DNA of 64,000 nt from Tubulanus polymorphus (Eukaryota > Nemertea > Palaeonemertea > Tubulaniformes > Tubulanidae): positions 3,097,631-3,161,630 of the forward strand of contig NC_134033.1 in NCBI RefSeq assembly GCF_964204645.1, read 5' to 3'. The position numbers and the translations under genes are program-made. This document shows, one piece after another, positions 11,730-42,605 of this stretch. The stretch's first letter is position 1; every line of letters starts with the position of its first letter. The notes under the pieces were generated by a model. That model saw nothing but the letters and a program-made list of their open reading frames with translations. It did not search any database and was not told the DNA's origin.

Positions 11730-14700
11730 ATGCAGCGAATGAAAGCGTTGTTCGTAGTTTTACTGATCGCTTGCGGAGACTGTATATTTACGCGGGCTGA
11801 TCGCGCAAACTCTGTCGAGGAAGCCGCGTCAGTTACAGTCAGTTCATCTTGTAACAACACTCAATACTCCGTCGATTCTACGTCTGGTTACATCGTTTCA
11901 CCGAACTATCCGTCGTTAGTGCGCGGTGTTGAATGTCGTTGGTTCGTCAACAGCTCTTTACCGGGAAGTTTTCTCGTTCAAGTTTACTACGACATCGAGC
12001 CGTCGATATTCTGTAACGAAAACTACCTTCTCGTCGGCGAGTCCGACAACAAACTCTGCGCTACCGGAAGAAAACGACTTGATATCCGCAGTAACGGTTT
12101 GATTTCGTTGTTATTTAGGAGTAACGTCGATGGAGCGCGAGGTAGTCGGGTTTACATCATATATCGTTTTGAAGAACAGAGTCGCTTGAAAAACATACAT
12201 ACATGTCACAAACATACAGTAAAAGAATTACCAACTCAAACAGGTTATAAATTCATGATTTCTACCCGGCGATGTAAATTGTTGTTAGAATGGATCGGGA
12301 TGCCAGACGGGTTTGCAATGAATTTAACGTTTTTACAGATAGATTTCAGATTAAGACCAGGTGAGGATCCGATGAAACCTCGTCCTCAAATTTACGACGG
12401 ATGGAACAGCACCAGTGAACCTATAGCTCTTACACGAGAACAAACCGGACATCCGCCTTCATCGTTTTATACTAAAACTAATAAAGCACGTATTGAATTC
12501 ATTTCAAGTAGACAGTCGTTTAAGTCACAGTTACTCGTGCAAGTTTACAAAATATCAGATTGGAACATCTCTAACCCGTTAATTCAATTCTATAATAAAT
12601 CAGGATTGCTCACTACAATTGATGGAATACCACATATAGTAACTCAGTCTAAACACTTATACTGCTGGTCTATCACAGTCGATGTTCTGCAGTACGTCGT
12701 CTTCAACTGGACACGTGATCTCGTCTCGTCACCAGGTGTCGTTGGTGTATATAAACAGGAAGGGTTACGTATTGTGAGAACTGATATTTTACTCAGTTTT
12801 AACCATCTTGAATCCCTGAGGGTAAAATCAGACGGATTTCTCGTCATTCTGTGCGTTTTAACGACATCGGATTTTTTAAGATCGAATTTGAAAATAGAAT
12901 TTGAAGTGAAATCGATGACAATATCAGACGTCTACGTCAACAAGCCACAGATATCGGTAAGTTTATTACAGTGATTTGTAAATTAGGTTCGTGTAATAGA
13001 ATCATTGTAATAATCTATGATTTTGACCAGCGAAACTTTACCGAGAAAATTGGAATAACAATGTTATGTGTGACCCAAATTACAATATATTCGGACGCAC
13101 TTGTTGTTTACGCAGAGTAATTATGATGATTAGTGGAAGAATTTAGATTTAGTTTGGATTACAAGGAGAACTATTATCGATATTTTCAGGTTGTGATTGG
13201 TTTGAAATTGTCGTATTGTAAACGTTCAATGTTGTAATCAATTCTCTTATATTCCAGCATTCACTCACAAACTCAATATCAGATAATCGATTGTTCCCGA
13301 GAACAAAGAATACATTGTATCGTGTAACGACATTACAACTAAACTGGAAAGTGAACATCTATGAAGAACAGTTGAAACTAACAGTGCTATCAGAAAACTG
13401 TGATCGAGCTGGTTTTTATATATTTGATGGTAGTAATTTCACAGCTAGACGCTATGGTCCGTATTGTCCTGATTCATTCTCCGGTCGATCTGTCGTCAGC
13501 CTGATTACATCAGGTGGACCGGTTACTGTAGTAGCATACGCTTATTACTATAACAATCAGTTAACAGTTGGTAGCTCATCTCTTAAATTTGCTCCTACTG
13601 ATTGTGACGGTTATGTTCTACAGGAAGAAGAACGTCACATCAATATGACGTCACATTGTCTCGTGATTACACCTGAAAATCGACGCCTTCGCTTGAAAAA
13701 TATCCATATATTATCAGAACACGAATATCAAATTGATATATGTTTTCTCAAGATGTCATTATTATGTGAACAGTTTCTGAGTTTAAGTAATCGGTTTCTT
13801 AATAACAGTCTCGTATTAAACACTGTAGATTTCACAGGTAATGAGTTTGTATTCTGGCAAGAACCACTAATAGTTAAACTACGTCGTGAATGTCTAGGAG
13901 TGAAAAAAGCGGTTAGTTTTGGATATCTTGGATCCCGTCTTCCAGTTACTACTAAAGATACATGTGGACTCGTGCAGTCACCGAACTACCCGGGTTTGGC
14001 AGTACGTACATCAGAATCTATTTCATATAAATTTGAAAACCCGATACAACAAAATATATTTCAATATTACAGATTTATTGTCAAATTCATTGGATCAATT
14101 TCATGTGAAACAAACAGCGTAGGTGAGAATGATCCAATCATTTTGAAACAATCAATAATTTACGAACGCTTTCACACTCGACATGAAACTAAAATATGTG
14201 AAAATAATGCGGTTCGTGGACTTATATTTTATAGTTTAATAGATAATACTTTGCGTTTTGAAGTAAACAATTTCATTCCGATATTTCAAATACAATACAC
14301 GTTACACGAGTCGTTACCGATTAAACATTTCGATGATTTCTACTGTAAACAAGGATTTCTGGATTCCGGAATTTCTTGCATCAAATTCATCAGAGATGAA
14401 CGTCTGAATTGGGAGAACGCTGAAATATACTGTAGACAGAAGTACGCGGGACATCTACTCAGTATCAACTCAGAACAGGAAATGATTTCCATCAAAAGAT
14501 TATTCGCTACAGAACTTCTCCGATTGGTGTACACATTAAAAGCGCTCATAATGATGATTGGATTGAAATGGCAGGTAAGACTAATGTATACAATTATGAA
14601 TTAGAATATAAAGGTTTTTTAAAAATTACGATATGTTTAATTTTCTTCACGAAACAGGATGATGGTTATTACACGTGGACTGACGGTAAACCATTGAGCT

Positions 14701-17700
14701 ACACAGAGTGGTACAAACCTGTTATTAATGAAACGATACCAGAAGTTATTCGAGGATTGATATCTCCGCTAAGAAAACAACCGATAAATGACGTCAATAT
14801 GCCGTGTACGGCGATGATACTGAATAATCCACGAGGATCGGCGAACTGGGTTCGATTCCCGTGTCAAATCGAGGAGACGCACACGACATTCATTTGTGAA
14901 TCCGAGAGAATCGACACCAAAAATGAACACAATTCAACGATAAACGATGCGAACAATTCAACAAATACAGACTTAAATAAAACCATAGATCAAACGATTC
15001 CCGATATTACTTTAATTAATTCAACCTGTCCAAGAGGTTGGGTAACTAATTCTGGACAATGTTTTCAAATACTAACCGACTGGAAAAACAATCGAGGTTT
15101 GAATATTCGGAGTGCTAGAGAAATGTGTCACAGTTTCCGCGCCGAAATAGTAAAAATCACCTCAAATACAGAAAGTGACGTGAAAAACTTGGTCAGCGAA
15201 TTTCAATATCGACATCAATATGGCGCTATACTGACAATGGACCACGACGGGTTTAAAGTTATCAAACCACTGGTGACCAGAGATGAAATTACTTATATTC
15301 AATCAGTGAAATGGTCAGTGACTGCCTTCAATGATACAAAAGATAAAGTGCATTCCGTGTTGTGTACCTATAATGTAACTGCTGAAGAGTTAGCTTCTAT
15401 AAGCGGTTGTAAATCGTGGCAGTTTGAATGTAACGATCAAAGATGTATCAGCGACCATCGCTTATGTGATACCAGACACGACTGTCAACACGGTGAAGAT
15501 GAAGTCGATTGTAGGGATATCAATTTACACAGTCAGTTCCGCTGTAACGATCGACAGGTTATATCGATTAGCGGTTTCTGTGACTTTATGAGAGATTGCG
15601 TCGATGGCTCGGATGAGAACTCGTGCTATCATCCACCGTGTTTATCTACGCAATATCGCTGTTCCAATCACCAATGTATCGATAGTTATAAACGATGTGA
15701 CGGACTAGCCAACTGTAAAGACGGTTCCGATGAGATCGGATGTACTTCCGAACTTTGTCAGGGGTTCTCGTGCGCGGACGGTGAATGTATTAGTTCTCAG
15801 TTGTATCGGGATGGTGTCGTGGATTGTAGCGGAAGTCTCGAAGAAGACGAATTGGTCACTAATATGACAGTGAATCCCGAGGTTTACTGTAATAATGACA
15901 CTCACTGTACGACTCGTTTCACAGATCTGTGTAAGGAATCGGATGAACAAAGATGTTCGTTCAATTCTCCTCGCTGTTATTCCCGACACGAAAGGTGTAT
16001 TTTAGAAAGGATGCCGATTGGTTTCCCGGTATGTAGAAATCTTGAACATATAATCGCGTGTAATGACTTCGAATGCGCGGCTGGTACTGTAAAATGTCCG
16101 GCATCTTACTGTATACCGATCAGACACGTTTGTGACGGTCGATCCGATTGTCCTAATTCAGAAGATGAACGAAACTGCGAGACTTGGTCGTGTCCGGGAA
16201 TGTTTAAATGTGGCCAGGAAAACCGATGTATTCCGCAATCTGAAGTTTGCGACGGAGTCGTAAATTGTAAACATAACTCGGATGACGAGTCATTCTGTAA
16301 GGTCACGTGTCCTGAGCGTTGTAATTGCCGGGGCCATTTCATCGATTGTGAAAATGCTCTTTTATCAGATATTACTGGTCGTTTTATAGAATCAACTCGG
16401 GTTTTGATTTTGTCGAATAACCGAGTCGTATTTAACGAGTCGACGTTCAACTCTTTCATTTATCTTCGTTTTCTCGATATTTCGGGCAATAATTTGTCTT
16501 ACATCGTTCCAAACGCGTTTTCTAATCTAAACAATCTATACACATTAGACCTTACACACAACCGCATAACATCATTATCTGCTAATACATTCGCAGGTTT
16601 GATCGGTTTAAAACAACTATTTCTTATCGGAAATCCGCTGCAACATTTAGAAGACGGTAGTTTCCGAGGTCTGACGTCACTTACTGTTCTCGATCTTCAC
16701 GCACTTTCTATATCGGTTCTCGGTGAAAATGTATTTAAAGGTTTATCCGCATTACAGTCGTTAAATATCAGCGGTAACAAAATACATTATATTTCGACAT
16801 TTGCTTTTTCTGGATTGGTTGGACTTGAAATTTTAGACCTTGTCAACAATTTTGAAGTAATATCCGTACAAAGAAACGTCCTTGGCGATCTTACATCATT
16901 GAAATACCTCGCTTCGGATGCTTACAAATTTTGCTGCATGGCACCGAATGTTGACCGATGTCTTCCCGAAGCTGATCAATTTTCCACCTGCTCTGACCTG
17001 ATGGGTAACGCTGTACTGAGGGCCATCATCTGGATGATCGCATCTTTCAGTTTTCTCGCTAACAGTATCGTTATCTTATTTCGCGTTCAAGCTTTACGGA
17101 TGGAATCCTCCGGAACACGTAACACATCTTCAGATATCCTCATCATAAATATTGCCGGTTGTGATTTTCTGATGTCGGTCTATTTGTTTCTGATCGCGGG
17201 AGCTGACCACGTGTTCAAAGGCGTTTATTATCTGAATTCTGAAACCTGGACGGATAGCTCATTATGTCGTCTCGCCGGGATTATTGTCACCGTTTCGTGC
17301 GAAGGTTCCTTGACCTTTCTCTTGATTCTAACGCGTCAGAGATATTCAAATATCGTCAACCCGTTTTCTAGAAGTCCGATTATAACTCCTAAATACGTTA
17401 TCGGGATTTGCTGCATTTGTTGGCTCGTTATGAGCACAGTTTCTATTCTACCGCTGTCATCGTCGTCTTACTTCGGAGACAATTTTTACGGTACAACCGG
17501 AGTCTGTTTGCCTATGAATTTACTGACGATCGACGTCAATGGCTGGCACTATTCATTCGCTATTTTTGCCTTGTTTAATGCGGCCATATTGGCTACGATA
17601 ATGACGACGTACGCTCAGATGTATAGACTCGTATCCGGAAGTAGGTCGGGCTCGGGTAGAGCCGATCCTACCGAACTGGTTTTAGCGCGAAGGAGTTTAG

Positions 17701-17927
17701 TAATCAATCTTTGTAATCTATTTTGCTGGCTACCGATAATAATCGTTCAGTTTTGCGCCGTATTTTCGGTCGAGATACCGAACCAGGTGGCCGCTTGGCT
17801 GGCCGTTCTATTTTTACCGATCAACTCGTCTCTGAATCCGCTTCTTTATACAATACTTACAATCGATATGAAATCTATTCATGAACGCAATAAACGACGA
17901 CTAGGATTGACGGCATCCAGTAAATAA
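11730..17927 (+). CDS. CUB / C-type lectin / LDLa / LRR / 7TM receptor, copy A
   Basis: Three exons, 11730-12956, 13258-14574 and 14658-17927, all joined in phase 0 at GT-AG introns, give 1,937 residues. Order: signal peptide (1-23); CUB (about 41-147) with CUB-like segments up to 770, including CGLVQSPNYPG near 645; C-type lectin-like domain (about 770-930, split by intron 2, core TWTDGKPLSYTEW); Asn/Thr-rich linker; second, degenerate lectin-like domain (972-1083); six LDLa-like repeats (1097-1397; for example CDGLANCKDGSDEIGC); LRR N-cap and about seven leucine-rich repeats (1399-1610); 7TM (1636-1910) with NIAGCDFLMSVYL in TM2, CWLP in TM6 and NSSLNPLLY in TM7. LDLa+LRR+7TM is the GRL101 / relaxin-receptor (LGR type C) plan, so it is probably a cell-surface G-protein-coupled receptor with added CUB and lectin modules. 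The TM3 motif reads RQRY instead of E/D-R-Y. AATAAA overlaps the stop. The ATG chosen starts the signal peptide. Ligand unknown. Confidence 0.9.
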
Positions 17928-18544
17928 ACTACAGTTTGACATGAGTCCCTTTATAATGTTTGCCTATCTATAAATCGGTTTTGAACTTTGAAATCCTAAA
18001 ACTTGGGTTCGACATCGTTTGGACTCACGTGACCGCATTAGATGAACGAATACAATGATTCACAATAAATAATTTTCCAGTTTCTAGGCGCCATTTTGTG
18101 GCGGTCCCTCGAGATCCCCATTGTTGCGATAATTTGCGCTCATTTTTGAAACATAAATTTTGATTGACTATCCTACAGCTCTGCAGTGTATTGAAATTAA
18201 ATCATGGTGATTAGACATTTTGACTCCACAAAATGTCTACTCGCTATGATTCATGTGACGTGTGGAGCTCCTTAGTTTATTCCGGAAGAGTTTGAATCTT
18301 CCGGTCGATTTGGGTTGGTTTAATCGGCACGGTAGCAATCAGAGCAATTGCGAAAGGGCGACATAAAAAAAATATACAAATACTTAAAATTCTACCGGAC
18401 GATTCAAAGCGTGTTAGACCAGCGAGTGATCTCAAGGACGTTCAATTTCATGTAGAAATGCTGAATACGTCAGTATCCGCTACAGTAACTTTAGATTGTG
18501 GTCAAAGTGCTCAACTTGTGCAACACCTAACTATTTGTAAGCTG
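17928..18544. other. 3' flank of receptor A; no gene seen
   Basis: Non-duplicated DNA starting where copy A stops matching copy B. It includes a possible polyadenylation signal AATAAA at 18064 and an 11-bp hairpin (AGACATTTTG, then its complement) around 18213-18245. Confidence 0.5.
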
Positions 18545-18720
18545 GATTTGACCAATGTTTAGTAGGATTGATCCTCGAACTGATTCACTTCGAATCGAAC
18601 GGTTTACAATTCAATTCAATTTCGTGATTTCAAAGACCGAGGACAATAATAACAGGACACGATATAAACAGATTACGTCATGGTTCAATGGACACGACGA
18701 CCACCATTGGCTAGATATAA
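18545..18720 (+). repeat. Long inverted repeat in the spacer, left arm
   Basis: Matches the reverse complement of 22690-22835 over about 150 bp with moderate divergence. The best-conserved core is GATTTCAAAGACCGAGGACA followed by ATAA. The two arms bracket about 4 kb of spacer containing the FN3-like exons. Confidence 0.6.
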
Positions 18721-20084
18721 TACCAGGCTGACCCTGTACATCTTAACTTCAATATCTTAGCGAATATATTTCACTAATGTACGAAGTAGATCGCGTTGAA
18801 ATGATATATTTATGCAACGCCTCAAATCCTTTTGAAAATAGCATGAATTAGATGAAACACTAGTTTGCAATACTTTCATTAAATCGAATTTTCATTGTCT
18901 ATAACCCGAATTATCATCCATGTTAATTGGAAGAAAAATCTTTAAGAGCGTTTTCAGTAGATTTTATGAAGTTTATGTAAATTAGGAACTTCGACGTTTA
19001 ATAACATCTAGCGAAATTTATCATAATTTCAATTGTAATGAATGAATATCTAAATCACTTACCAGCTCAAAAACTCGGAAAAGTATCTCCCATTACGAAC
19101 CCGCTTGCTTCCATTCGTCTTTATCAATATAGTACATTTGCATTGATTTAGACCGTACGGTGCTGCCACCGAGGAATAGTGTCGTTTATGTGAACCAAAT
19201 GGCGGCTTTTTTAATCGCAGGGTTTACAGTTAACAGTAATGGGTCTAGAGGGACTATTATGGAGACTTTGATGAAATAATTAATGAAAATATTAGCTTCT
19301 AAGTAGATCTATGAAATTATATCAACAAGCCTTTAGGAAACACATTAGTAGGTTTCAGTTGTCAGCATTTAAACAAAATCAACAAGTAATATACAGAAGC
19401 GGGAGTTCATGGCCAGCAGTGCAGTTACCAGACAACCTGCCTGGATATGTACGTCGTACATAAACATAAATAGAAATTATATAAATAAACAAGTCTGGAA
19501 GTGACGTATGTGTCAACGTAGGAAGAGCTAATATGGTCCGGTTATGCGCTCCGTTGAGTGCGGAAATATATTTATAGAAAATTATGACGTGTGCAGATAC
19601 GTCAGCGCCCATACATGGATGGAAGAAATGTTGTGACGTATAAATACGCCACAAGCAATGAATTCCAAGCCATGTGTGGAAGAGGACCTGCACACGTTAA
19701 AGTTATATAAATAGGGAGGAATGTTGTGACGTATAAATACATCACAAGCAATGAATTCCAAGCCATGTATAGAAGAGCTCCTGCACCGGTTATACAAGAG
19801 AAAGTTAGATAAATAAGGGGGTTTTTAGTAAGCACGGGAGTTGAGCTCCGGGGAAGAATCTGTAAACAACGAGTTAAGAGATAATAAACGAATATATAAT
19901 TTAAGAAGTAGTTAAGTTATATACGGGAGCCAAAGTCAAGAACTGGGAAGAAAGACCTGGCCTAAAGACAGATCCTGCACGACATCGCTGGTAGAGAAAC
20001 GCAACCATAACAGTGGTAGAGATCACAACAGAAGCGGACAACTTCAAAATTCAACACCACAACAAGACTACCCTGGTTTTATAG
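18721..20084. other. Spacer, no gene seen; contains a local duplication
   Basis: A unit of about 115 bp with GTGACGTATAAATACRYCACA, AGCAATGAATTCCAAGCCAT and GAAGAG is repeated at about 19620-19690 and 19725-19790. Minus-strand frames over it are repeat by-products. The stretch 19800-20040 has AATAAA-type strings and may be a decayed retroelement end, but no boundaries could be fixed. Confidence 0.35.
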
Positions 20085-20965
20085 ATCGATGATGTTTATT
20101 TCGTTTTTGTTGAAGGTGGTTTCGATATCGCGATGCAGCTTCCGTCGGGCTGGATCCCGAATTCGTGGAAAATGGTGCCGTGTCCTGTTCGCGGTAACAT
20201 ACAGTACCGATTCACCGAGAAAAACAAATTCTGGACGCAATTAACATTTCACAATTACAGGTATGGAAATAGTTCTTCCGAGGGATGCACGTAGAAGCAT
20301 TTTTGTTTTTAGTTTCTTTGATGATGGAGTTTTAGGAGTAACCCCGAAGCAGTAAGAAAATAGACTTTTCTTCATATAACTGTGCGTTTTATTTTTTACG
20401 TAGAAGCATATTCAAAGAAAGAAGATTTTTACAACAAAAGTTTTGGGGCGTTCCGGGATCAGTTGCGCATCGTACCTTCAGTACAAGTGTTCCTAAATCT
20501 TGAGACTAGCCTTAAGTTATTGTATTGGTTATAGAACTAAGATGACCCTTATGATAGCGAATTTTAATGGTAATCGGGATATTGTGGTAGTGGATGTGTA
20601 AACTACGTCATTGATATTGGGGCTGGACTGGTTGGCGTTCAATATTGTCGAGGATATATTCAAATTAGAACTTTCTTGATCCTTGATATTATATCATTCA
20701 TAGTATATCATTCGTTGTCGAAGATATCGAGCAATATGTGGGTTATTCTTCAAGACGTCAATAAACTTTCATGTCAGTTTTATCTTTAGAAATGCCATTT
20801 ACGAAGTGAATTACCGATGGCCGGGAGAAGAGACGTGGCGAACGACCGAACGCGCTAAATACGGCGCGTTCTTCATCATGAAGGACGTACCCGCAGACGG
20901 CGTCATCGAGGTCAAGGTCAAGTCCATCTTCAACTACGACGTCATCGGCCGTACTACCGGCTGGA
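20085..20965 (+). CDS. Two exons of an unrecognised gene, possibly fibronectin-III-like
   Basis: Two putative exons, each 176 nt: 20085-20260 (acceptor GGTTTTATAG, donor GTATGG) and 20790-20965 (acceptor TATCTTTAG, donor GTGAGTGT). They join in matching phase through an AG|A arginine codon and read through without a stop. The first encodes a segment ending NIQYRFTEKNKFW; the second begins NAIYEVNYRWPGEETW and ends with DVIGRTTGW. The Y-x-V-x-Y, W and final G-W pattern recalls a fibronectin type III fold, but no family is recognised. No start or terminal exon was found, so the gene is partial, or a relic with only these exons left. The codons are GC-rich compared with the flanking DNA, which favours true coding. 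Confidence 0.45.
20500..20660 (-). repeat. Dispersed repeat related to the 47-bp array at 60.1 kb
   Basis: On the minus strand it reads TTAGTTCTATAACCAATACA then ACTTAAGGCTAGTCT, close to the unit of the array at 60120-60685. The neighbouring GGACTGGTTGGCGTTCA also has a counterpart near 60055. It lies in the intron between the two FN3-like exons. Confidence 0.5.
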
Positions 20966-21069
20966 GTGAGTGTTGGCGGATCTTACAGGGATCCGTCAGA
21001 AATCTACCGCCCTATTTAACACAATTTCGATGGAAATACCATTCTTAATTACTACGCTGGCAAATACGA

Positions 21070-21434
21070 CCGACCTACGCCCAGCTATCTAAAGCCGGGC
21101 GTAGGTCGGCCTTGCGACGGCTTGCGACTCACTGCGACGACGCGACTTACTGCGACCGCCAGCGACGATCGCGTCGCAACGACCAACCGACCTAAGCTAC
21201 CTTGCGACTGCCAGCGACGGTTTGCGACTGCCATCAACGCCAGTCGCAATGAGTCGCACATGTTCTACTTTCTGCGACGCGACGCGACCATCGCAACCGA
21301 TCAACGTGCTCTTGCGACTGGAGAGCAACTAGTCGCACACAGTCGCTGACAATCGCGTCGCAACCGACTTGTGCAGCCACTTGTGACGCAACGCGACGAT
21401 CTCGTCGCATCGCAAGGTCGACCTACACCCATCG
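21070..21434. repeat. GCGAC-rich element with a terminal hairpin
   Basis: Starts with a 13-bp perfect hairpin, CCGACCTACGCCC (21070-21082) and its complement (21097-21109). About 300 bp packed with TGCGAC and GTCGCA words in both orientations follows. It closes with GTCGACCTACACCC near 21417-21430, similar to the start. The region is much more GC-rich than its surroundings. A 75-codon frame through it is a repeat by-product. Confidence 0.65.
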
Positions 21435-22160
21435 TTCAAAGATGCGCCTTGCTCTGTTCAGTTCACGTACCGGTATGTTAATTTTCAATTGATTTTTTTT
21501 TTGTAGATTTGGATTACCAAGATTTCGGTGTTCAGCAGCCAGCAGTTTGCATTCAAACGACTCCCGATACTGACTGATATCAATAAATACAAATTTACGA
21601 AAGACAAGACGTGTATTTCTCATTAGTTCGTCATCGGAGAGGAGAGAGAACTTTCCGGGGCCAGTTACTGAGGGGGATGTCCACCAAAAACCAGACATTG
21701 TGCTCGGATGCTGGATTGATGCTAATTTGAACCCCTATGAAAATTCCTCGGGACGCCTGACCATCCATTGGTTAACTGTAATCAACTTTTGAGCAAAAGG
21801 CACCCCGGTGTTTTTGGCCTATTACACCAACCAGAACAGAACTTTCATCGAGAACCGCCACAGGGCATGTACCGCTGGGAACGCGAGCATACTGAGTTCG
21901 AACATTGACAATCCATGTATCGAAATACTGATCTTAACTCTGGGAGTTGAACTTAACTAAGAACGTTCGTAAATACTGTGGTTATCTTTTGTTTTTGTTT
22001 ACGTATATGGCGACTCTCTAGCGCGACATTACGTGCGCGACATCTCTTTATTTCTAACAGATTCCTGATGTTGGCTGTCAGTAAAAACCGAAATGTTGTG
22101 GGTTCATTTTCGCGATAATACGGTAGTTTTTCGTTTTATCCCGCGATAACAATTCGTGGG
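21435..22160. other. Spacer, no gene seen
   Basis: No credible exon; a minus-strand frame at 21423-21698 has no recognisable domain. Confidence 0.4.
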
Positions 22161-22164
22161 CTGG

Positions 22165-22370
22165 CGGGATGAGCTAGGTCTGAGAATGAGCTAGGTCTGG
22201 GAATGAGCTAGGTCTGGGAATGAGCTAGGCCTGGCGGGAAAGAGCTAGGTCTGGCGGGAATGAGCTAGGTCTGGGAATGAGCTAGGTCTGATAATGAGCT
22301 AGGTGTGGTGGGAATGAGCTAGGTCTAGGAATAAGCTAGGTCTGAGAATGAGCTAGGCCTGGGAATGATT
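22165..22370 (+). repeat. 18-bp tandem repeat
   Basis: About eleven units of GGGAATGAGCTAGGTCTG with small length variants (a GGC insertion, or GTGTGGTGG). Confidence 0.88.
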
Positions 22371-22689
22371 TTTGATCGAGGCATTAGTTTACAGTCTATC
22401 GCTAATAGTTCTAAGAATTCTCTTCGAATTCAGCGACAATTCGAGTCATAAACAATGGAAATTGATTATTTGAATGTAGTGCGAACTGTTCTAAGATATT
22501 TCTTGTGCATTCTAATGAGGACTGGTCCACTTCTTATATTTGACCGATGTATCCTCCAGCTAATGAATTATTGATACCCACTGGTCCACTTCTTATTCAT
22601 TGTATTTGAAATGAACATGTTTCAGTTTGTAAGAATAGTACAGAGGTTGTGGTACGTATTATCATAGAACCACGCGTTTGTAGTTCAGT

Positions 22690-29895: not shown

Positions 29896-29980
29896 ATCAA
29901 AAAAATAATGCCATCTACCGGGCGAGACAGGAACTAGTTCCCATTTCAACCCGGTAGATGGTAATAGAGAATGAGACAAG

Positions 29981-31775: not shown

Positions 31776-32089
31776 TCTATTGAGCCAAGTATTCAATTAA
31801 TTTTTAAGGCAGAAATTGATACTCTCACTAAAACCCTGAATTATAATTCCTGCCACACAATTACAGGCTGCTATAAATAACTCCATTGACAATTCTTATG
31901 ACACTCAGTAAACACTATGTTTACAGATAAACTGCTCTCTCATAATTGTTTTTGAAACATAAAAGAAATTCTACTCACACAAGTCTCTCCTCCCTTGTCT
32001 AGCAGTAATAATAGTCCACTGAGTTCCACAATTCCACATACAGAGTTCCACACCTTCAGGAGTCAACCACTGATTTTTTACGAGTATCA

Positions 32090-32255
32090 ATCCACTTTTA
32101 GTCCAGTTAGTCCACATGTAGTTCGGTAAGTTCACATGTAGTCCAGTTAGTTCACTAGTAGTCCGGTTAGTGCACATGTAGTTCACATGTAGTCCGGTAA
32201 GTTCACATATAGTCCGGTTAGTTCACTAGTAGTCCGGTAAGTTCACTAGTCCGGA
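32090..32255 (+). repeat. Short tandem repeat, about 20-bp unit (copy B)
   Basis: Counterpart of 7430-7595; near-identical. Confidence 0.75.
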
Positions 32256-32514
32256 AGAAGTTGACTGAAGAAGTAAAACTGATGAATTTCAGTCGAAGTC
32301 CACATCCAGTATTTGTGATGAAGTTTACCAACGATAGTCGAGAGAGGAAAACCTGAAATATGAAATTGAAACAGTCTCTAGAGAAACACATTAACAAACT
32401 CAAACTCAAACTCTCAGACATACTAGTAAAGGCTTATGCAAAAGTTTTCACAACTTTACTGGATTAACAGATTGTTTTTACGTAACTGATATACTCGGCC
32501 ACTGTGGGAGTAAG

Positions 32515-32829
32515 ATGGTGAAACTGGTTGAGTCAGCTGGTGATGGTAACCTGCTGAACATGTGGAAAAGAGGAGGAATTAACAGGAATTGTAACAACAG
32601 CTCATCAAGATTTGTGAAACTATCACCTGCACCATGTCGTGCATGCGGCGCCGCCTGGCTAGTGAAAGTGGTTATTGACACTGAGTGCCGAGGTCCCTGT
32701 GTCTGTGAGGTCCCCCTGTGTGTCCCTGAGGACATGAAATCTTGTGAATTCTTATTCTTACGTATGTCTTACTTTAAACGGCCAAGTGAAAGTGACCACA
32801 GCCACAGCAAGGTTACCGTTAAACACTGA
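32515..32829 (+). CDS. Unrecognised 104-codon open frame (copy B)
   Basis: Counterpart of 7855-8169, with Gln-to-Leu and Gly-to-Ser changes and otherwise silent differences. Function unknown; it may not be a gene. Confidence 0.2.
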   Translation: MVKLVESAGDGNLLNMWKRGGINRNCNNSSSRFVKLSPAPCRACGAAWLVKVVIDTECRGPCVCEVPLCVPEDMKSCEFLFLRMSYFKRPSESDHSHSKVTVKH

Positions 32830-33047
32830 CTCCAGGTCCCTGTTGTGGTGGACGTGTCTGTAAAGTCCGTGTGTCTGTGAGGGCACGAAATCTCATGAAT
32901 TCTTATCTTTTAAACCAATATCAAAGTTCGTACGTTGGGAATCATTGTGGCTTTAAAGTCTTTATCAATTGAGAGACTTAGTTTCATTGTAAATAAAGAA
33001 TTAGAGATTGAATTGAGCGCGCTCCACAGTGCACGATTTCCATATCG

Positions 33048-33664
33048 ACCGTCTAGTGCTGCCCCTACATATAACGATAGCGGGGAAAACGTGAACTAAC
33101 TTAATACTCGCTTGCCAGAGTCTTCGGACGGCCGTAGTGGACGAACTAATTACCGATTTGCGGGCCGGATTCCGAGGGAATTCTCCAAATCTTACAACTG
33201 CTCTGAAACGTTTGAACCAAACAATTATTCTATAAGAGAATTAACCTTAAAAGAGTAAATTGAATCGGGATATTTTTAGTATCGTCTGGCAGAGAGCGAC
33301 AGGTGTTTGAATGTTCCCTGATTATTTGCGCGCAATTAAAATATATCGAAGAAAAAATATGGAAATTTTGTCAATTCAGATGATAAATTATCATTCAAAA
33401 ATATAACTGAATAACTTATTCTGAATATAAATACTAATTAATTGATAAGAAAGTGAATTTTAGCTATCAAAATTGAATATCGTTCCCTAAAAAATAAGAA
33501 AATTTCATTAAAAAGTTATAAAGTATTCATAGTATCATATTTAATCAGAATTAGGCACCACACTGGTCCGTATTGTACGTAATTGGGAAATTCATATTCC
33601 GGCGGCGCTATTTTAGTTCACAGAAATTCCGCTGTCGTTATTCATAGGGGCAGCACTGTACGGT
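33048..33664. mobile_element. MITE-like element, 617 bp (copy B)
   Basis: Counterpart of 8388-9004, same ends, a few internal substitutions. Confidence 0.65.
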
Positions 33665-34807
33665 TGATATCTAACCCAGCCTCGCAATCTTACTGTGGCA
33701 TGCAAGTAAAACAGATATTTTTTTAGCCGAATTTCGTTCATTATTCACCACGATTCCGTTTTCTATGAATAATTCAATTAATTTTTAAGCTTTTGGAAAG
33801 GGGATCTTCTTTTTAAAACGATTTTCAAGCCATTTTTGATAGAACTCTTCTGTCAACGGAATCTAATTGCATAAAGCGGTAAAGAGGTAGACTCACATGC
33901 CACAGACAGAATCTAAAGCAAATTAAATTTTATTCTCCAAAAAAGTGCATTCATCCAACGCTATCATCAAAGTTGCAGCACGTGAACCATTAAACCTCCT
34001 ATTAAGGTCGACCCTTCTTGGTCAGGGTTAAAATCAAACTCTCCCAACCACAAATTGGTGCAAACAACTGGAAAAACTTCAGTTGAACATCGTTAATACG
34101 ACAAATCTGTGTAAAGACGAAACCAGTTTGATTCAACAATTGTATCCCACAAGATTCATATCAACGAGATTCCACTTAAACTAGAACAGAAAATCAGTTA
34201 CAACCACCACAAAATTAGTGAATAATCAATTTATTGTGAAATTTATTTCTTTCAGTGAAAAATGTGCATCAGAGTTAAATATCAAATAAAAGTCTTGCAT
34301 AAAGCGAACATGTGATCAACTCCGCAAAGAACTGACTGAACTTACCCAGGAATCGAAACCTGAAATCATATTTACAATATCAGACATCAGATTTATGATG
34401 CATCAGTATCACACATGTTGTTTCTGGTGCGCTATGTTATTACAGTACAGTAGAGTCTGCTCCTAACTTGAATCAATGTGATACCAGTGATACCCCATTG
34501 ACTGATGATTCAAGTTCTGTGGTCGAGAATTAAAACCTAGCAATCTAACTCGGAAATGTCTAAAAACTCCTGGACTTTTGTCGAATTCAGACGGAAATGA
34601 AATCATTTTCTGACTTTCTAATGGAATTTTCTGATCCTCAACTCAGATTTTTGCTTAGCAAGTATAAATTTTGCAAGTCTCCGCTTCAGTAAGACAAGGT
34701 TTACTGTTTTTGAGTTAAAAGCCGACATTTCTTTGTAGAAATAAACCAAAAATTTTGAGTGACTGGTGCTTTAGGAGTGTTTTAAATCTAGAGAAATTGA
34801 GACTTAC

Positions 34808-34893
34808 CTTAAACGGAAAGAATTGATCGTCCATGTTTCCGAAACCTAAGGAGCCATGTTTATTTCTACCCCACACGTACAGATCATTGTTAT
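34808..34893 (-). CDS. RCC1-repeat exon, open (copy B)
   Basis: Same 86-bp exon as at 10156-10241 with the same splice sites. The frame is open: NNDLYVWGRNKHGSLGFGN then MDDQFFPFK, followed by GTAAGTCTC. The motif WGRNKHGSLGFG is a good RCC1 signature. It is only one blade of a usual seven, so it is a fragment of a gene whose remaining exons are not recognised here. The gene would run antisense to the receptor, beginning upstream of it. Confidence 0.5.
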
Positions 34894-35394
34894 CTACAAT
34901 ATAATAACATTGTAAACAATGTAACATCATTCTAGATGCTAGGCTAGGGATTGATAGAGAGAGGGAGCAGGGCCAGGGAGTTTCACACAGTAACTAGGCT
35001 TAAGAATAGAAATCCGATTCCCTTTGTACTAGCATGTCTCCAGCCTCGATTGCCTACGTACCTATTGATAACTATTAAAATGAGACATCAATTTCTAGCA
35101 TTTCTTCCAAATCACAACTCTACTTGGTTCATCTTGGTTTATCTGGGTTCGTCCTGGTTCATCCTGGTTTATTGGGGTTCGTCCTGGTTCATCTTGGTCC
35201 ATCTGCTCCACTGCATCAATGTCTGTATAATGTTCAAATCAATTCTCTACTGATTGTAGGTAAAGGGGGAATCGTCACCACCATAACAACCGTCAATAGT
35301 TCCGCCATATTGATGACAAACATCCTAAAAATATACATGAAACTTAATAAATTTGAGTTATGTTAGAGTTAAGTCTAGTTACTGGTGTATCATA

Positions 35395-35820
35395 GAAATG
35401 GCAATCTAAGGTACCCCCCAAAACGAGGGTTAGGGGTCAAATATTTTTTGTCTCCAATTTCGGAGAAATTTAGTATAGACATGTATTCTGGGGTGCTGAT
35501 CACAAATCTGAAAGAATTCTTAGGATCCGAGGCCTCAAAAATGAGAAATTCGAATTCTTAGGGGTAAATTTTAAAAAGGCCCTGGACCCCAGGGTTTTTG
35601 AGATATTTGAAATCTGATTGCAGATTTGGAATCAGCACCCCCGAAAATATTTAGGACTTAAATTTCAAGCAAATCGAACAGATTCGATTTTTTGGCTAAA
35701 AACGGCAAAAATCTAAGGTGTAAGTCCAGGAGTTTTTTTTCGGCGAAAAAAATTTTTCTCTGATTCCTTCTAAACTTGGTAGGAAGATGTATTCCGAGGT
35801 GTAGATTCCGGATCTACCGC
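35395..35820 (+). repeat. Dispersed degenerate repeat, third unit (copy B)
   Basis: Counterpart of 10740-11170, with a short deletion near 35563. Confidence 0.7.
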
Positions 35821-36371
35821 GGTCATCCCCGTCTTACTTTGTTGCTATTGTTTCTTCAAAACAATCTGTACCAAACAAGACCTTACTCACCACAATCAGA
35901 TATCCACGCGCTTCACTTAGCTTCAACTCAGTTATTATATTGACTGTAGAGCGAATTTAGTCAAAACAGATATTGACGAAATGTTTTACAGAGACGCAGA
36001 ATATTTCGAGGTACAGATAGAAAATGTCATAGAATATTATCACAAACTGAACGCAGTTCGGGAGCGACAGTAAATATTTTTAGAGAAATAATTGCACATG
36101 ATTATAAACACGATATATTGAAACACGTCTAAATTTAGAAACCGCGGTAATTACAGCGAAACCGAGAACAGATGAAAGTTTCACAAATACGAGACTGGCG
36201 CCAGTTTGATGGGAGATCTTTTTACAAAATAATTGGACTCGGTCAATTCGTCAACTTCTGACATTTGCGAATTCGTCATTACTTTGTTTGCAGCCACTCT
36301 TATGAGAAATGTCGTGAAAACTTGGAAATAGTTAGAAATGTGTTTGTTTTGAAGCGTGAATTGTGTTCAAT

Positions 36372-39300
36372 ATGCCGCGAATGAAAGCGTTGTTCGTAGT
36401 TTTACTGATCGCTTGCGGAGACTGTATATTTACGCGGGCTGATCGCGCAAACTCTGTCGAGGAAGCCGCGTCTGTTACAGTCAGTTCATCTTGTAACAAC
36501 ACTCAATACTCCGTCGATTCTACGTCTGGTTACATCGTTTCACCGAACTATCCGTCGTTAGTGCGCGGTGTTGAATGTCGTTGGTTCGTCAACAGCTCTT
36601 TACCGGGAAGTTTTCTCGTTCAAGTTTACTTCGACATCGAGCCGTCGATATTCTGTAACAAAAACTACCTTCTCGTCGGTGAGTCCGACAACAAACTCTG
36701 CGCTACCGGAAGAAAACAACTAGATATCCGCAGTAACGATTTGATTTCGTTGTTGTTTAGGAGTAACGTCGATGGAGCGCGAGGTAGTCGGGTTTATATC
36801 ATATATCGTTTTGAAGAACAGAGTCGCTTGAAAATCTTACATACATGTCACAAGCATGCAGTGAAAGAATTACTAACTCAAACAGGTTATGAATTCATGA
36901 TTTCTGCCTGGCGATGTAAATTGTTGTTAGAATGGATCGGGATGCCAGACAGGTTTGCAATGAATTTAACGTTTATACAGATAGATTTCAGATTATATCC
37001 AGGTGAGGATCCGATGAAAACTCGTCCTCAAATTTACGACGGATGGAACAGCACCAGTGAACCTATAGCTCTTATACGAGAACAAACCGGACATCCACCT
37101 TCATCGTTTTATACTAAAACTAATAAAGCACGTATTGAAATTATTTCAAATAGAAACCCACTTTTTAAGTCGCAGTTACTCGTGCAAGTTTACCAAATAT
37201 CAGATTGGAACATCTCTAACCCGTTAATTCAAGTCTATAATAAATCAGGACTGCTCACTACAATTGATGGAATACCACATATAGTAACTCAGTCTAAACA
37301 CTTATACTGCTGGTCTATCACAGTCGATGTTCTGCAGTACGTCGTCTTCAACTGGTCACGTGATCTCGTCTCGTCACCTGGTGTCGTTGGTGTATATAAA
37401 CAGGAAGGGTTACGTATTGTGAGAACTGATATTTTACTCAGTTTTAACCATCTTAAATCTCTAAATGTAAAATCAGACGGATTTCTCGTCATTCTGTGCG
37501 TTTTAACGACATCGGATTTTGAAAGATCCAATTTGAAAATAGAATTTGAGGTGAAATCAATGACAATATCAGACGTCTACGTCAACAAACCGAGGATATC
37601 GGTAAGTTTATTACAGTGATTTGTAAATTTGGTTCGTGTAATAGAATCAATGTAATTATCTATATTTTAATGGCTTTTTTGACCAGTGAAACTTTACCGA
37701 GAATCTTGGAATAACAACGTTATGTGTGACCCAAATTTCAATATATTCGGACGCACTTGTTGTTTACGCAGAGTAATTATGATGATTTGTGGAAGATAAG
37801 TTAAGATTTGATTGCAACATTTTGAACTATTATCAAAATATCGAGGTCGTACAGAGTTTGAAATTGCCGTTTTGTAAACATAAAATGCTGTTATCAATTT
37901 TCTTATATTTCAGCATTTATACACAAGGAAATCAATATCAGCTAATCGATTGTTCCCGAGATCAAAGAATACATTGTATCGTGTAACTACATTACAACTA
38001 AACTGGAAAGTGAACATCTATGAAGAACAGTTGAAACTAACAGTGCAATCAGAAAACTGTGATCGAGCTGGTTTTTATATATTTGATGGTAGTAATTTCA
38101 CAGCTAGACGCTATGGTCCGTATTGTCCTGGTTCATACTACGGTCGATCTGTCGTCAGCCTGATTACATCAGGTGGACCGGTTACTGTAGTAGCATACGC
38201 TTATTACTATAACAATCAGTTAACAGTTGGTTACACCGGCAACTCAATTCTTAGATTTGCTCCTACTGATTGTGATGGTTATGTTCTACAGGAAGAAGAA
38301 CGTCAGATCAATATGACGTCACAATGTCTCGCGATTACACCTGAAAATCGACGCCTTCGCTTGAAAAATATCCATATATTATCAGAACACGAATATCAAA
38401 TTGATATATGTTTTCTCAAGATGTCATTATTATGTGATCAGTTTCTGAGTTTAAGTAATCGGTTTCTTAATAACAGTCTCGTAAAAAACACTGTAGATTT
38501 CACAGGTGGGTTTGTATTCTGGCAAGAACCACTAATAGTTAAACTACGTCGTGAATGTCTAGGAGTGAAAAAAGCGGTTAGTTTTGGATTTCTTGGATCC
38601 CGTCTTCCAGTTACTACTAAAGATAAATGTGGACTCGTGCAGTCACCGAACTACCCGGGTTTGGCAGACCCTACATCAAAATCTATTTCCTATAAATTCG
38701 AAAACCCGATACAACAAAAAATATTTCAATATTACAGATTTATTGTCAAATTTATTGGATCAATTTCATGCGAAACAAACAGCAGGGTCGAGAATGATCC
38801 AATCATTTTGATACAAACAATAAATTATGACCTCTTTCTAAATGGAAAATATTACAAAACCATTTTAACCCAACATGAAACTAAAATATGTGAAAATAAC
38901 GCGGTTCGTGGACTTATATTTTATAGTTTAACAGATAATACTCTGCGTTTTGAAGTAAAAAATGGTATACCCATCTTTCAAATACAATACACTTTACACG
39001 AGTCGTTACCGATTAAACATTTCGATGATTTCTACTGTAAACAAGGATTTCTAGATTCCGGAATTTCTTGCATCAAATTCATCAGAGATGAACGTCTGAA
39101 TTGGGAGAACGCTGAAATATACTGTAGACAGAAGTTCGCGGGACATCTACTCAGTATCAACTCGGAACAGGAAATGATTTCCATCAAAAGATTATTCGCT
39201 ACAGAACTTCTCCGAATGGCGTACACATTAAAAGCGCTCATAATGATGATTGGATTGAAATGGCAGGTAAGACTAATGTATTCAAATATGAATTAGAAAA

Positions 39301-42300
39301 GAAAGGTTTTTAAAGAGAATGATATATATTTCATTTTCTTCACGAAACAGAATGATGGTTATTACACGTGGACTGACGGTAAACCATTGAGCTACACAGA
39401 GTGGTATAAACCTGTTATTAATGAAACGATACCAGAAGTTATTCGAGGATTGATATCTCCGCTAAGAAAACAACCGATAAATGACGTCAATATGCCGTGT
39501 GCGGCGATGATACTAAATAATCCACGAGGATCAGCGAACTGGGTTCGATTCCCGTGTCAAATCGAGGAGACGCACACGACATTCATTTGTGAATCTGAGA
39601 GAATCGACATCAAAAACAAACATAATTCAACGATAAACGACGCGAACAATTCAACAAATACAGGCTTAAATAAAACCAAAGATCAAATGATTCCCGATGT
39701 TACTTTAATAAATTCAACCTGTCCAAGAGGTTGGGTAACTATTACCGGACAATGTTATCACATACTAACCGACTGGAAAAACAATCGAGGTTTGAATATT
39801 CGGATTGCTAGAGAAATGTGTAACAGCATCCGCACCGAAATAGTAAGAATCAACTTAAATATAGAAAGTGATATGAAAAATTTGATCAACAAATTTCAAT
39901 ATCGCCATCAATATGGCGCTATACTGACAATGGATCGCGGCGGATTTAAAGTTATCAAACCACTGGTGACCAGAGATGAAATTACTTATATTCAGTCAGT
40001 TAAATGGTTATTGAAACCTTTCGATAATACAAAAGATAAAGTGCATTCCGTGTTGTGTACCTATAATGTAACTGGTAAAGAGTTAGCTTCTATAAGCGGT
40101 TGTAAATCGTGGCAGTTTGAATGTAACGATCGAAGATGTATCAGCGACCATCGCGTATGTGATACCAGACACGACTGTCAACACGGTGAAGATGAACTCA
40201 ATTGTACGGATATCAATTTACACAGTCAGTTCCGCTGTAACGATGGACAGGTTATATCGATTAGCGGTTTCTGTGACTTTATGAGAGATTGCGTCGATGG
40301 CTCGGATGAGAACTCGTGCTATCATCCACCGTGTTTATCTACGCAATATCGCTGTTCCAATGACCAATGCATCGATAGTTATAAACGATGTGACGGACTA
40401 GCCGACTGTAAAGACGGTTCCGATGAGATCGGATGCACTGCCGAACTTTGTCAGGGGTTCTCGTGCGCGGACGGTGAATGTATTAGTTCTCAGTTGTATC
40501 GGGATGGTGTCGTTGATTGTAGCGGAAGTCTCGAAGAAGACGAATTGGTCAATAATATGACATTGAATCCCGAGGTTTACTGTAATAATGACAATCACTG
40601 TACGACTCGTTTCACAGATCTGTGTAAACAATCGGGTGAACAAAGATGTTCGTTCAATTCTCCTCGCTGTTATTCCCGACACGAAAGGTGTATTTTAGAA
40701 AGGATGCCGATTGGTTTCCCGGTATGTCGAAATCTTGAACACATACTCGCGTGTAATGACTTCCAATGCGCGGCTGGTACTGTAAAATGTCCGGCATCTT
40801 ACTGTATACCGATCAGACACGTTTGTGACGGTCGATCCGATTGTCCTAATTCAGAAGATGAACGAAACTGCGAGACTTGGTCGTGTCCGGGAATGTTTAA
40901 ATGTGGCCAGAAAAATCGATGTATTCCGCAATCTGAAGTTTGCGACGGAGTCGTAAATTGTAAACATAACTCGGATGACGAGTCATACTGTAAGGTCACG
41001 TGTCCTGAACGTTGTAATTGCCGGGGTCATTTCATCGATTGTGAAAATGCTCTTTTATCAGATATTACCGGCCGTTTTATAGAATCAACTCGGGTTTTGA
41101 TTTTGTCGAATAACCGAGTCGTATTTAACGAGTCGACGTTCAACTCTTTCATTTATCTTCGTTTTCTCGATATTTCGGGCAATAATTTGTCTTATATCGT
41201 TCCCAACGCGTTTTCTAATCTAAACAATCTATACGCATTAGACCTTACACACAACCGCATAACATCATTATCTGCTAATACATTCGCAGGTTTGATCGGT
41301 TTAAAAGAACTATTTCTTATCGGAAATCCGCTGCAACATTTAGAAGACGGTAGTTTTCGAGGTCTGAAGTCACTTACTGTTCTCGATCTTCACGGACTTT
41401 CTATATCGGTTCTCGGTGAAAATGTATTCAAAAGTTTATCCGCATTACAGTCGTTAAATATCAGCAGTAACAGAATCCATTACATTTCGACATTTGCTTT
41501 TTCTGGATTGGTTGGACTTGAAATTCTAGATCTTGTCAAAAATGCCGAAGTGATATTTGTAAAAAGAAACGTTCTTGGCGATCTTACATCATTGAAATAC
41601 CTCGCTTCGGATGCTTACAAATTTTGCTGCATGGCACCGAATGTTGACCGATGTCTTCCCGAAGCTGATCAATTTTCGACCTGCTCTGACCTGATGGGTA
41701 ACGCTGTACTGAGAGCCATCATCTGGATGATCGCAACTTTCAGTTTTCTCGCTAACAGTATCGTTATTGTATTTCGCGTTCAAGCTTTGCGGATTGAATC
41801 CTCCGGAACACGTAACACATCTTCAGATATCTTCATCATAAATATTGCCGGTTGTGATTTTCTGATGTCGGTCTATTTGTTTTTGATCGCAGGAGCTGAC
41901 CACGCGTTCAAAGGCGTTTATTATCTGAATTCTGAAACCTGGACGGATAGCTCATTATGTCGTCTCGCCGGGGTTATTGTCACCGTTTCGTGCGAAGGTT
42001 CCTTAACTTTTCTCTTATTTCTAACGCGTCAGAGATATTCAAATATCGTCAACCCGTTTTCTAGAAGTTCGATTATAACTCCTAAATACGTTATCGGTAT
42101 TTGCTGCATTTGTTGGCTCGTTATGAGCACAGTTTCTATTCTACCGCTGTCATCGTCGTCTTACTTCGGACACAATTTTTACGGTACAACCGGAGTTTGT
42201 TTGCCTATGAATTTACTGACGATCGACGTCAATGGCTGGCACTATTCATTCGCTATTTTTGCCTTGTTTAATGCGGCCATATTGGCTACGATAATGACGA

Positions 42301-42605
42301 CGTACGCTCAGATGTATAAACTCGTATCTGGAAGTAGGTCGGGCTCGGGAAGAGCCGATCCTACCGAACTGGTTTTAGCTCGAAGGAGTTTAGTAATCAA
42401 TCTTTGTAATCTATTTTGCTGGCTACCGATAATAATCGTTCAGTTTTGCGCCGTATTTTCGGTCGAGATACCGAACCAGGTGGCCGCTTGGCTGGCCGTT
42501 CTATTTTTACCGATCAACTCGTCTCTGAATCCGCTTCTTTATACAATACTAACTATCGATATGAAATCAATTAGAACGAGATATAAACGTCAACAAAAGA
42601 AGTAG
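36372..42605 (+). CDS. CUB / C-type lectin / LDLa / LRR / 7TM receptor, copy B
   Basis: Tandem paralogue of the receptor at 11730-17927. Exons 36372-37601, 37914-39266 and 39351-42605 join in phase 0 and give 1,945 residues with the same domain order. All length differences from copy A are in frame: extra residues in the CUB-like exon 2 near GYTGNSILRF and YDLFLNGKYYKT, and a two-residue loss near TGGFV. The 7TM differs at about ten positions of 275, whereas the second lectin-like domain differs at roughly one residue in five. The last codons are unrelated to copy A (ends RTRYKRQQKK) because the duplication breakpoint falls there. TM3 again has RQRY and TM7 NSSLNPLLY. AATAAA lies at 42626. 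It is probably a surface GPCR of the GRL101 / LGR type C group with a separate ligand preference (inference). Confidence 0.9.

Follow-up and report, generated by a model that had tools for sequence, protein, structure and literature searches.

The closest published case in the open-access literature is the cluster of lectin-bearing GRL101-like receptors in Biomphalaria sudanica SudRes2 (PMC12297450). As described there, these receptors resemble those reported here in being GPCRs that carry LRRs, LDL-type repeats, and, at the N-terminus, a C-type-lectin-like domain (CTLD); their genes lie together within 440 kb, differ in presence or absence, and include truncated members (PMC12297450). The cluster amounts to 10 genes with all domains and two missing one, with six further genes annotated elsewhere, whereas at least 230 exon-1 places are found here; in the main text of that study, with which we compare by description, CUB has zero occurrences and one lectin domain is given (PMC12297450).

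The type-C2 LGR GRL101 of Lymnaea stagnalis shares several LDLa modules, LRRs, and a 7TM near the relaxin and glycoprotein hormone receptors with the genes here, but the accounts consulted describe twelve LDLa modules, six LRRs, and no CUB domain or CTLD, compared with six LDLa modules here (PMC8286064, PMC4079206, PMC11863921). LDLa modules are described as missing from type A and B LGRs (PMC11863921), and one GRL101 orthologue per species is reported for the ambulacrarians studied (PMC8286064). Among solved structures, RXFP1, a type-C1 LGR, is the best match both to the LRRs with the 7TM and to the 7TM alone, although in the alignment TM3 ends in QRY in the receptors here and in EKY in RXFP1. 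RXFP1 carries one LDLa module and is not known to have a CUB domain or a CTLD. GRL101-type receptors are orphans.

Gene models and domain architecture

The window, meaning the whole stretch of 64,000 nucleotides from Tubulanus polymorphus that was analysed, contains genes A and B and a tandem duplication:

11730..12956, plus strand: gene A exon 1 (409 aa, from the start codon; signal-peptide-like stretch, CUB1, two further unassigned segments)
13258..14574, plus strand: gene A exon 2 (439 aa; unassigned or CUB-like sequence, then the first half of CTLD1)
14575..14657, plus strand: gene A intron 2 (83 bp, phase 0, interrupting CTLD1)
14658..17927, plus strand: gene A exon 3 (1,089 aa and stop; remainder of CTLD1, CTLD2, LDLa array, LRRs, hinge, 7TM)
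36372..37601, plus strand: gene B exon 1 (410 aa)
37914..39266, plus strand: gene B exon 2 (451 aa)
39351..42605, plus strand: gene B exon 3 (1,084 aa and stop)
1..42589, unstranded: tandem segmental duplication pairing 1-17896 with 24185-42589, with a period of about 24.2-24.7 kb and in blocks of 89-97% identity

The first-pass annotation had proposed two tandem genes of about 1,940 residues with a signal peptide; the models bear out the two genes and their size. Genes A and B, of three exons each, encode products of 1,937 and 1,945 aa, with no internal stops in either reading frame, and the four introns all lie in phase 0 with GT-AG boundaries. An alignment of the two proteins has 1,951 columns, of which 1,785 are identical. 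The only hydrophobic peak of A outside the 7TM, at residues 6-24, is consistent with a signal peptide, a call made from hydrophobicity. The 3' end of gene A was also considered as a novel duplication junction, which was ruled out because the upstream copy c7 carries the same 3' flank.

The domains of A are arranged as follows:

11850..12185, plus strand: CUB1 (residues 41-152; Pfam match 48-107)
12186..12956, plus strand: segments 153-409 (cysteine-containing; CUB-like by eye only, nothing over a Pfam cut-off)
13966..14325, plus strand: segment 646-765 (opens CGLVQSPNYPG as CUBs do; no Pfam hit; among the more variable segments)
14326..14574, plus strand: CTLD1 N-terminal half (residues 766-848)
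14658..14915, plus strand: CTLD1 C-terminal half (residues 849-934)
15012..15395, plus strand: CTLD2 (residues 967-1094; degenerate, variable, without the inner cysteine pair)
15396..16289, plus strand: LDLa array (residues 1095-1392; six Pfam stretches)
16290..16919, plus strand: leucine-rich repeats with a cysteine-rich N-cap (residues 1393-1602)
17016..17876, plus strand: 7TM core (residues 1635-1921; best PDB sequence match RXFP1)

The core proposed at first, in which LDLa repeats and LRRs precede a relaxin-receptor-like 7TM, is recovered. The Pfam search with full-length A yields six Ldl_recept_a stretches (E 4.7e-32), a number also found in the paralogous copies d2 and C6, three LRR_8 stretches (E 7.4e-28), and 7tm_1 (E 9.5e-23, 81.4 bits). 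The best PDB match for the 7TM alone is RXFP1 with 161 bits (3.7e-46), followed by LHCGR (96.5), TSHR (82.8), FSHR (78.9), and LGR4 (38.8), and RXFP1 is also best for the LRRs and 7TM together (6.2e-76). The RXFP1-nearest 7TM, the adjoining LRR ectodomain, and the LDLa modules support the suggested type-C LGR relationship, and the best reading of the sequences is a GRL101-like type-C2 receptor, C2 being preferred to C1 because of the several LDLa repeats, six here, as the sole ground. The extension beyond the classic LGR plan is likewise present, as an N-terminal part of about 1,090 residues with CUB, CUB-like, and CTLD segments.

Of the two CTLDs claimed, CTLD1 is well supported once spliced. 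Its Lectin_C match reaches 27.6 bits in A and 32.8 and 35.5 bits in two distant paralogues (cut-off 22.6), whereas, unspliced, exon 2 of A gives 14.5 bits and the start of exon 3 (95 aa) has no match at an E value of 1 or below. Its six cysteines in A (772, 783, 801, 898, 917, and 928) are the long-form set, so that both domain match and cysteines place CTLD1 in the fold. CTLD2 does not reach this standard, with a Lectin_C match of 15.1 bits in A, below the cut-off, and none in B or in two distant paralogues. The CTLD2 of one distant paralogue matches the C-type-lectin-like UL45 model (E 0.031), and 13 of 14 PDB matches of a profile of both CTLD2s are C-type-lectin-like (best E 1.7e-4), among which we count the IgY receptor.

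Of the "CUB domains" of the first-pass annotation, one is supported. In exon 1 the Pfam CUB model scores 22.3 bits in A and 21.3 bits in B (cut-off 21.4), which places CUB1 of A in the family and leaves B marginally under the cut-off; the CUB1 segment of A cut out alone scores 17.0 bits, and the scan of full-length A shows neither CUB nor Lectin_C at an E value of 1 or below. All six exon-1 family members searched match CUB at that level (best 5.5e-9), and a profile of the six sequences retrieves cubilin (E 2.3e-7). Residues 153-765 of A have no Pfam CUB hit and nothing exceeding a cut-off, and when profiles of segments 2-6 were set against CUB1 no match was convincing, the best being a 14% probability over 16 aligned columns (segment 646-765). 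Structures predicted from two-sequence alignments were unusable (mean pLDDT 30.4 for exon 2 and 29.2 for exon 1). The roughly 610 residues after CUB1 appear partly CUB-like, matching no Pfam family above cut-off.

Family size and the gradient of conservation

A and B, described at first as a pair, belong to a very large and mostly clustered gene family, with at least 230 distinct exon-1 places on 10 contigs in the union of two genome searches, the copy number being a lower bound. Searches with CUB1 returned 345 and 355 first-look candidates (weakest E among the best 150 of each: 5e-37 and 2.5e-39), with TM6-7 373 (best 150: 2e-31), with the CTLD1 half 329 (best 150: 1e-46), with exon 2 382 (best 96: 1e-158), and with the whole 7TM 571 (best 124: 2e-166); these candidates were only partly scored, and every scored place matched strongly. 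Among the best 124 scored 7TM places, 108 lie inside open frames of at least 1,000 aa. In 334 kb that were read, 13 copies show parts of the three exons in order, nine being intact and four disrupted, suggesting that part of the expansion may reflect drift. The disruption of c2 and c5 was judged from broken tblastn matches, and both were dropped from the copies modelled; c8 and c9 carry stops and were excluded from divergence counts, as was the C12 copy (L029), whose exon 2 reads in two frames, from alignments.

The family combines a constant 7TM transducer with a variable ectodomain. Identity in TM6-7 is 94% or higher at every one of the 150 places scored (best 150 of 373), and the first 80 residues of the CTLD1 C-terminal half are at least 86% identical, again at all 150 (best 150 of 329). 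Between A and the copies d1, d2, and C6, identity is 97-98% in TM6-7, 76-85% in the whole 7TM, 73-78% in both CTLD1 and the LDLa array, 63-65% in the LRRs, 50-55% in CTLD2, 49-53% in segments 5 and 6, and 17-25% in the linker; segment 4 is not fast, at 60-71%, similar to the LRRs.

The constancy of the 7TM reflects selective constraint, since its dN/dS is low (0.15 in close pairs and 0.07-0.13 in distant pairs) with a dS above 1.1 in the distant pairs. For the CTLD1 C-terminal half, recent homogenisation is as good an explanation as selection, because silent divergence is likewise low in distant pairs (dS 0.20-0.35, dN/dS 0.20-0.36), while most other parts show dS values of about 0.5-1.7. Ca2+- and sugar-binding C-type lectins carry EPN or QPD and WND motifs, in place of which CTLD1 has QPI (A, B, d1, and C6) or HPI (d2) and, in all five, WVR. 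Of the three parts of the ectodomain probed across the genome, the C-terminal half also varies least, and its near invariance makes it ill-suited as a variable sugar-binding site, weakening the glycan recognition proposed earlier.

Positive selection between A and B is unsupported over the whole N-terminal part (dN/dS 0.52, below 1; bootstrap 0.40-0.71); segments 4 and 5 exceed 1 on very few silent changes, and the candidate CTLD2 was dropped (bootstrap P(w>=1) = 0.07). In seven close copies the pairwise dS values of different exons show no correlation (r -0.03 to 0.21; LRR versus 7TM, -0.34), and A and B differ by 13.4 and 14.5% in the introns and at 45 of 731 fourfold sites, compared with 1.95% in the 11.4-kb 5' flank. 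Exchange between copies probably contributes to the diversity.

Possible functions and alternative explanations

We consider it somewhat more probable than not that these genes are a massively expanded GRL101-like type-C2 LGR recognition repertoire, with a constant transducer and a variable ectodomain, whose ligands, signalling, and role can be outlined as predictions. The variable N-terminal segments, the linker, CTLD2, and the LRRs would bind different extracellular macromolecules, putatively of environmental or microbial origin or derived from other individuals; binding may be relayed through CTLD1, the LDLa array, and the hinge to the strongly constrained 7TM, which would couple to a single shared G-protein pathway. 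Diversity would arise by tandem duplication, copy loss, and probably exchange between copies. An immune or self/non-self recognition role is our first guess, predicted with a little less than even confidence. Similarly tentative is the idea that GPCRs serve here as a large innate recognition repertoire of about 330-380 loci, with CUB-like modules, CTLD2, and LRRs diversified and reshuffled among tandem copies under a constant 7TM, which if true would be a GPCR counterpart of the expanded NLR, TLR, or FREP families. Of the chemosensory or immune-type GPCR for glycans or large secreted ligands suggested initially, a diversified recognition role has gained support, given family size and the contrast between 7TM and ectodomain, and the glycan ligand does not fare as well.

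Our second guess, which we regard as rather unlikely, is a chemosensory repertoire of sensory-cell receptors for water-borne proteins or glycoproteins, like the tandem GPCR families in smell. A very large tandem family with a conserved 7TM fits this idea, but the 7TM is here the constrained part, the opposite of odorant GPCRs, in which the variable part is the 7TM pocket. A GRL101-like receptor is reported to be enriched in the sensory tentacles of the crown-of-thorns starfish (PMC6267866), whereas the sole lectin-bearing GRL101 precedent found comes from a parasite-resistance study (PMC12297450).

Ordinary receptors for relaxin- or insulin-like peptides, with the N-terminal additions as a passive stalk, are improbable: the LRRs and 7TM are nearest to RXFP1 among solved structures and an IGF-receptor role has been put forward for GRL101 (PMC8286064), but at least about 230 gene places with strongly varying ectodomains are a poor fit to few peptide hormones.

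It is very improbable that uncollapsed haplotypes or repeat mis-assembly have created the swollen family. In favour of such an artefact, the A and B copies share about 95% identity over 12 kb, C6 places occur in equal-scoring pairs about 232.3 kb apart, and C22 and C32 hold few places and are possibly unplaced pieces. Against this, the places spread over 10 contigs, identities among the copies read range from 53% (exon 2) to above 90%, flanks and lesions differ, and the gene body of A and B is more diverged than its flank. Some doubled assembly may nevertheless be contained in the place count, because C6 places are near-identical at constant offsets and C22 and C32 are small contigs, an inflation that is possible even with a real family.

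As first proposed, exons 1-3 of A and B very probably form one gene encoding a single composite chain, splicing being deduced from CTLD1, which passes Pfam only when spliced, and from paralogues that keep the order of exons 1-3 although their exons 1-2 are only 53-64% identical. Among the matches listed for C9 and C22, an exon-1 place lies upstream of 54 of 57 exon-2 places and of 48 of 53 7TM places, and a 7TM lies downstream of 48 of 57 exon-2 places. That the CUB and lectin exons instead encode a separate secreted protein, and exon 3 alone the receptor, could draw on intron 1 retention, which would yield a secreted protein that stops five codons beyond exon 1 (frame 11718-12974), and on exon-1-only fragments outside the window, but it is highly doubtful given a CTLD1 that is whole only across the exon 2/3 junction, an exon order preserved at such low identity, and an exon 3 that begins inside a CTLD without a start codon or signal-like stretch, its first Met being residue 48.

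Significance for GRL101-type receptors

To our knowledge, hundreds of strongly constrained 7TMs beneath diversified ectodomains of about 1,600 residues would be unusual as a GPCR expansion, because the ectodomain instead of the 7TM pocket would be its basis. The expansion makes the function of GRL101 testable, and the GRL101-like cluster in the Biomphalaria schistosome-resistance region gains a wider frame.

The two receptor genes and their surroundings

Two tandem receptor genes, A and B, are found in the window, as the first-pass annotation had described, each composed of three exons, with all introns being GT-AG and in phase 0:

11730-12956, 13258-14574, 14658-17927, plus strand, exons of gene A (1,937 residues, stop-free)
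36372-37601, 37914-39266, 39351-42605, plus strand, exons of gene B (1,945 residues, stop-free)

Both genes are carried by a tandem segmental duplication (1-17896 versus 24185-42589). Each duplication unit also holds two copies of a repeat of about 530 bp (6301-6836 and 10644-11170; 30972-31499 and 35296-35813), possibly a shared regulatory or mobile element; the second copy lies about 0.5 kb 5' of the receptor start. A 53-bp minisatellite in the second unit (29967-30714) is far longer than its first-unit counterpart (5938-6072).

Further downstream, two small 7TM genes lie in tandem on the minus strand (47271-48354 and 51774-52859), with 83.6% identity across about 1.1 kb. The latter encodes 361 residues and scores 30.4 bits with the 7tm_1 model, slightly below the cut-off of 30.5, and the former is probably broken, since its open frame is shorter (255 residues). 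On the plus strand, at 44932-45810 and 48847-49773, sub-cut-off ankyrin-repeat matches are followed by a multi-pass-looking open frame with no Pfam match at E<=0.1, an order that suggests a candidate TRP-like channel.

Domain content and probable continuity of the chain

In the full-length chain, Pfam recognises LDLa in six stretches, together with LRRs and a 7TM of the rhodopsin type, in agreement with the first-pass annotation, and reports neither CUB nor Lectin_C at E<=1. Among solved structures, the best match for the 7TM alone is RXFP1 (161 bits), followed by LHCGR (96.5 bits), TSHR (82.8 bits), and LGR4 (38.8 bits), which bears out the proposed likeness to relaxin receptors. Judged by its sequence, the receptor core is probably that of the type-C2 LGRs (GRL101), a placement made by the multiple LDLa repeats.

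The N-terminal modules described with this core, several CUB domains and two C-type-lectin-like domains (CTLDs), were recovered in part, and the observation as a whole is therefore partly confirmed, the plural CUBs and the second full CTLD not being shown. Scanning of exon pieces places a CUB domain (CUB1) in exon 1, with 22.3 bits in A, slightly above the Pfam cut-off of 21.4, and 21.3 bits in B, slightly below it; the excised segment alone scores 17.0 bits. We take CUB1 as real because scans of six exon-1 family members each returned CUB at E<=1 (best, 5.5e-9) and the profile built from these six matches cubilin (2.3e-7). Residues 153-765 of A gave no CUB match and no Pfam model above the cut-off, and the six exon-2 members scanned against Pfam gave nothing other than a weak Lectin_C match, located in A at the start of the first CTLD (CTLD1). 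Reading the segments of this region as further CUBs is guesswork based on motifs like CGLVQSPNYPG.

The six cysteines of CTLD1 are spaced as in a long-form CTLD, and the spliced domain scores 27.6, 32.8, and 35.5 bits with Lectin_C in three copies. Calcium-dependent sugar binding depends on particular motifs, and CTLD1 carries QPI or HPI, and WVR, in their place, so that the proposed glycan recognition is unsupported for this domain. The second domain, CTLD2, lacks the inner cysteine pair; Lectin_C gives 15.1 bits in A, and no match in B or in two distant copies, one of which matches the lectin-like UL45 model (E, 0.031). A CTLD2 profile of A and B finds C-type-lectin-like chains in 13 of its 14 PDB matches (best E, 1.7e-4).

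Three arguments from sequence favour a single chain, as claimed earlier, joining the CUB and lectin exons to the LDLa, LRR, and 7TM exon. CTLD1 is split by intron 2 and passes Pfam only when spliced, with exon 2 alone failing (14.5 bits) and the first 95 residues of exon 3 giving no match. Exon 3 starts within CTLD1, and the sole hydrophobic peak besides the 7TM is at residues 6-24. The exon order 1-2-3 is kept in copies with just 53-64% identity in exons 1 and 2. Among the matches listed on contigs C9 (that of the window) and C22, exon 1 lies upstream of 54 of the 57 exon-2 places and 48 of the 53 7TM places, and the 7TM lies downstream of 48 of the 57 exon-2 places; on all contigs, both partners are listed for 59 of 150 exon-1 places, where an absent partner may merely be an unlisted match.

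Copies across the genome and their divergence

A and B are just two members of a huge family. The window occupies positions 3097631-3161630 of contig C9. In the 334 kb around it, 13 copies include sequence from each of the three exons, nine of them intact (A, B, c1, c3, c4, c6, c7, d1, and d2) and four disrupted, by stops (c8 and c9) or broken exon-2 matches (c2 and c5); this region also holds two exon-1 fragments. The latter, at window coordinates -65082 and -6513, cover the first 300 residues, with a signal-like stretch and CUB1; the same 304-residue open frame recurs at five places, and these could be truncated copies or genes for short secreted CUB proteins.

Searches of the 267.8-Mb assembly, in which the best candidates were scored, are as follows.

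Genome searches with parts of the receptor gene
TM6-7: best 150 of 373 scored, each at least 94% identical
Exon 2: best 96 of 382, at least 60%
CUB1: best 150 of 345, at least 76%
CUB1, probe based on contig C12: best 150 of 355, at least 76%
CTLD1 C-terminal half: best 150 of 329, at least 86%
Whole 7TM: best 124 of 571, at least 78%

The agreement of the first five, made with four gene parts (329-382 first-look candidates), suggests about 330-380 loci, and the 571 whole-7TM candidates may include other GPCRs. Open frames of at least 1,000 residues surround 108 of the 124 scored 7TM places. The two CUB1 lists merge into at least 230 exon-1 places on 10 contigs and are incomplete, since the divergent copy d1 is missing. 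On contig C6, some equal-scoring places are paired about 232.3 kb apart (at least three pairs: 19827324/20059623, 19817091/20049391, and 19839697/20071996), which would fit a recent duplication of a block of several genes; a doubled assembly may also be the cause.

Between A and three distant copies (d1, d2, and one on C6), identity is 97-98% in TM6-7, 76-85% in the 7TM, 73-78% in both CTLD1 and LDLa, 66-75% in CUB1, 60-71% in segment 4 (segments 2 to 6 being the CUB-like stretches after CUB1), 63-65% in the LRRs, 50-55% in CTLD2, 49-53% in segments 5 and 6, and 17-25% in the linker, and 82 of the 88 cysteines of A are invariant across ten copies. Comparison of seven close copies gives a dN/dS of 0.15 for the hinge and 7TM, 0.27-0.30 for CTLD1, LDLa, and LRR, and 0.38-0.83 for the other N-terminal segments. 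The 7TM is held by selection, since dN/dS in distant pairs is 0.07-0.13 at dS above 1.1. For the C-terminal half of CTLD1 (dN/dS, 0.20-0.36), dS in distant pairs is just 0.20-0.35, so its constancy may stem from recent homogenisation and not from selection. The silent divergence of a copy pair in one exon shows no correlation with that in another (r, -0.03 to 0.21) and gives r = -0.34 for LRR versus 7TM (21 non-independent pairs), and A and B differ more in introns (13.4 and 14.5%) and at fourfold sites (45/731) than in the 5' flank (1.95%). Exchange between copies, among other possible causes, would explain both the uncorrelated silent divergence and the high A/B divergence.

Proposed working and role

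A lectin-bearing, clustered version of GRL101 is already published from Biomphalaria sudanica, where the cluster is part of a genomic region associated with schistosome resistance, whose validated and top variants fall in a neighbouring Zn-RING-IAP gene (PMC12297450). The receptors described here are likewise lectin-bearing, whereas their CUB-containing N-terminus and the scale of the family are new, as far as the open-access library searched shows. The variable outer modules would bind differing macromolecules, and the constant 7TM would turn binding into one G-protein signal. Both immune or self/non-self recognition and chemosensation would fit such receptors, and by analogy with the Biomphalaria sudanica cluster and its resistance-linked region we lean toward the first.
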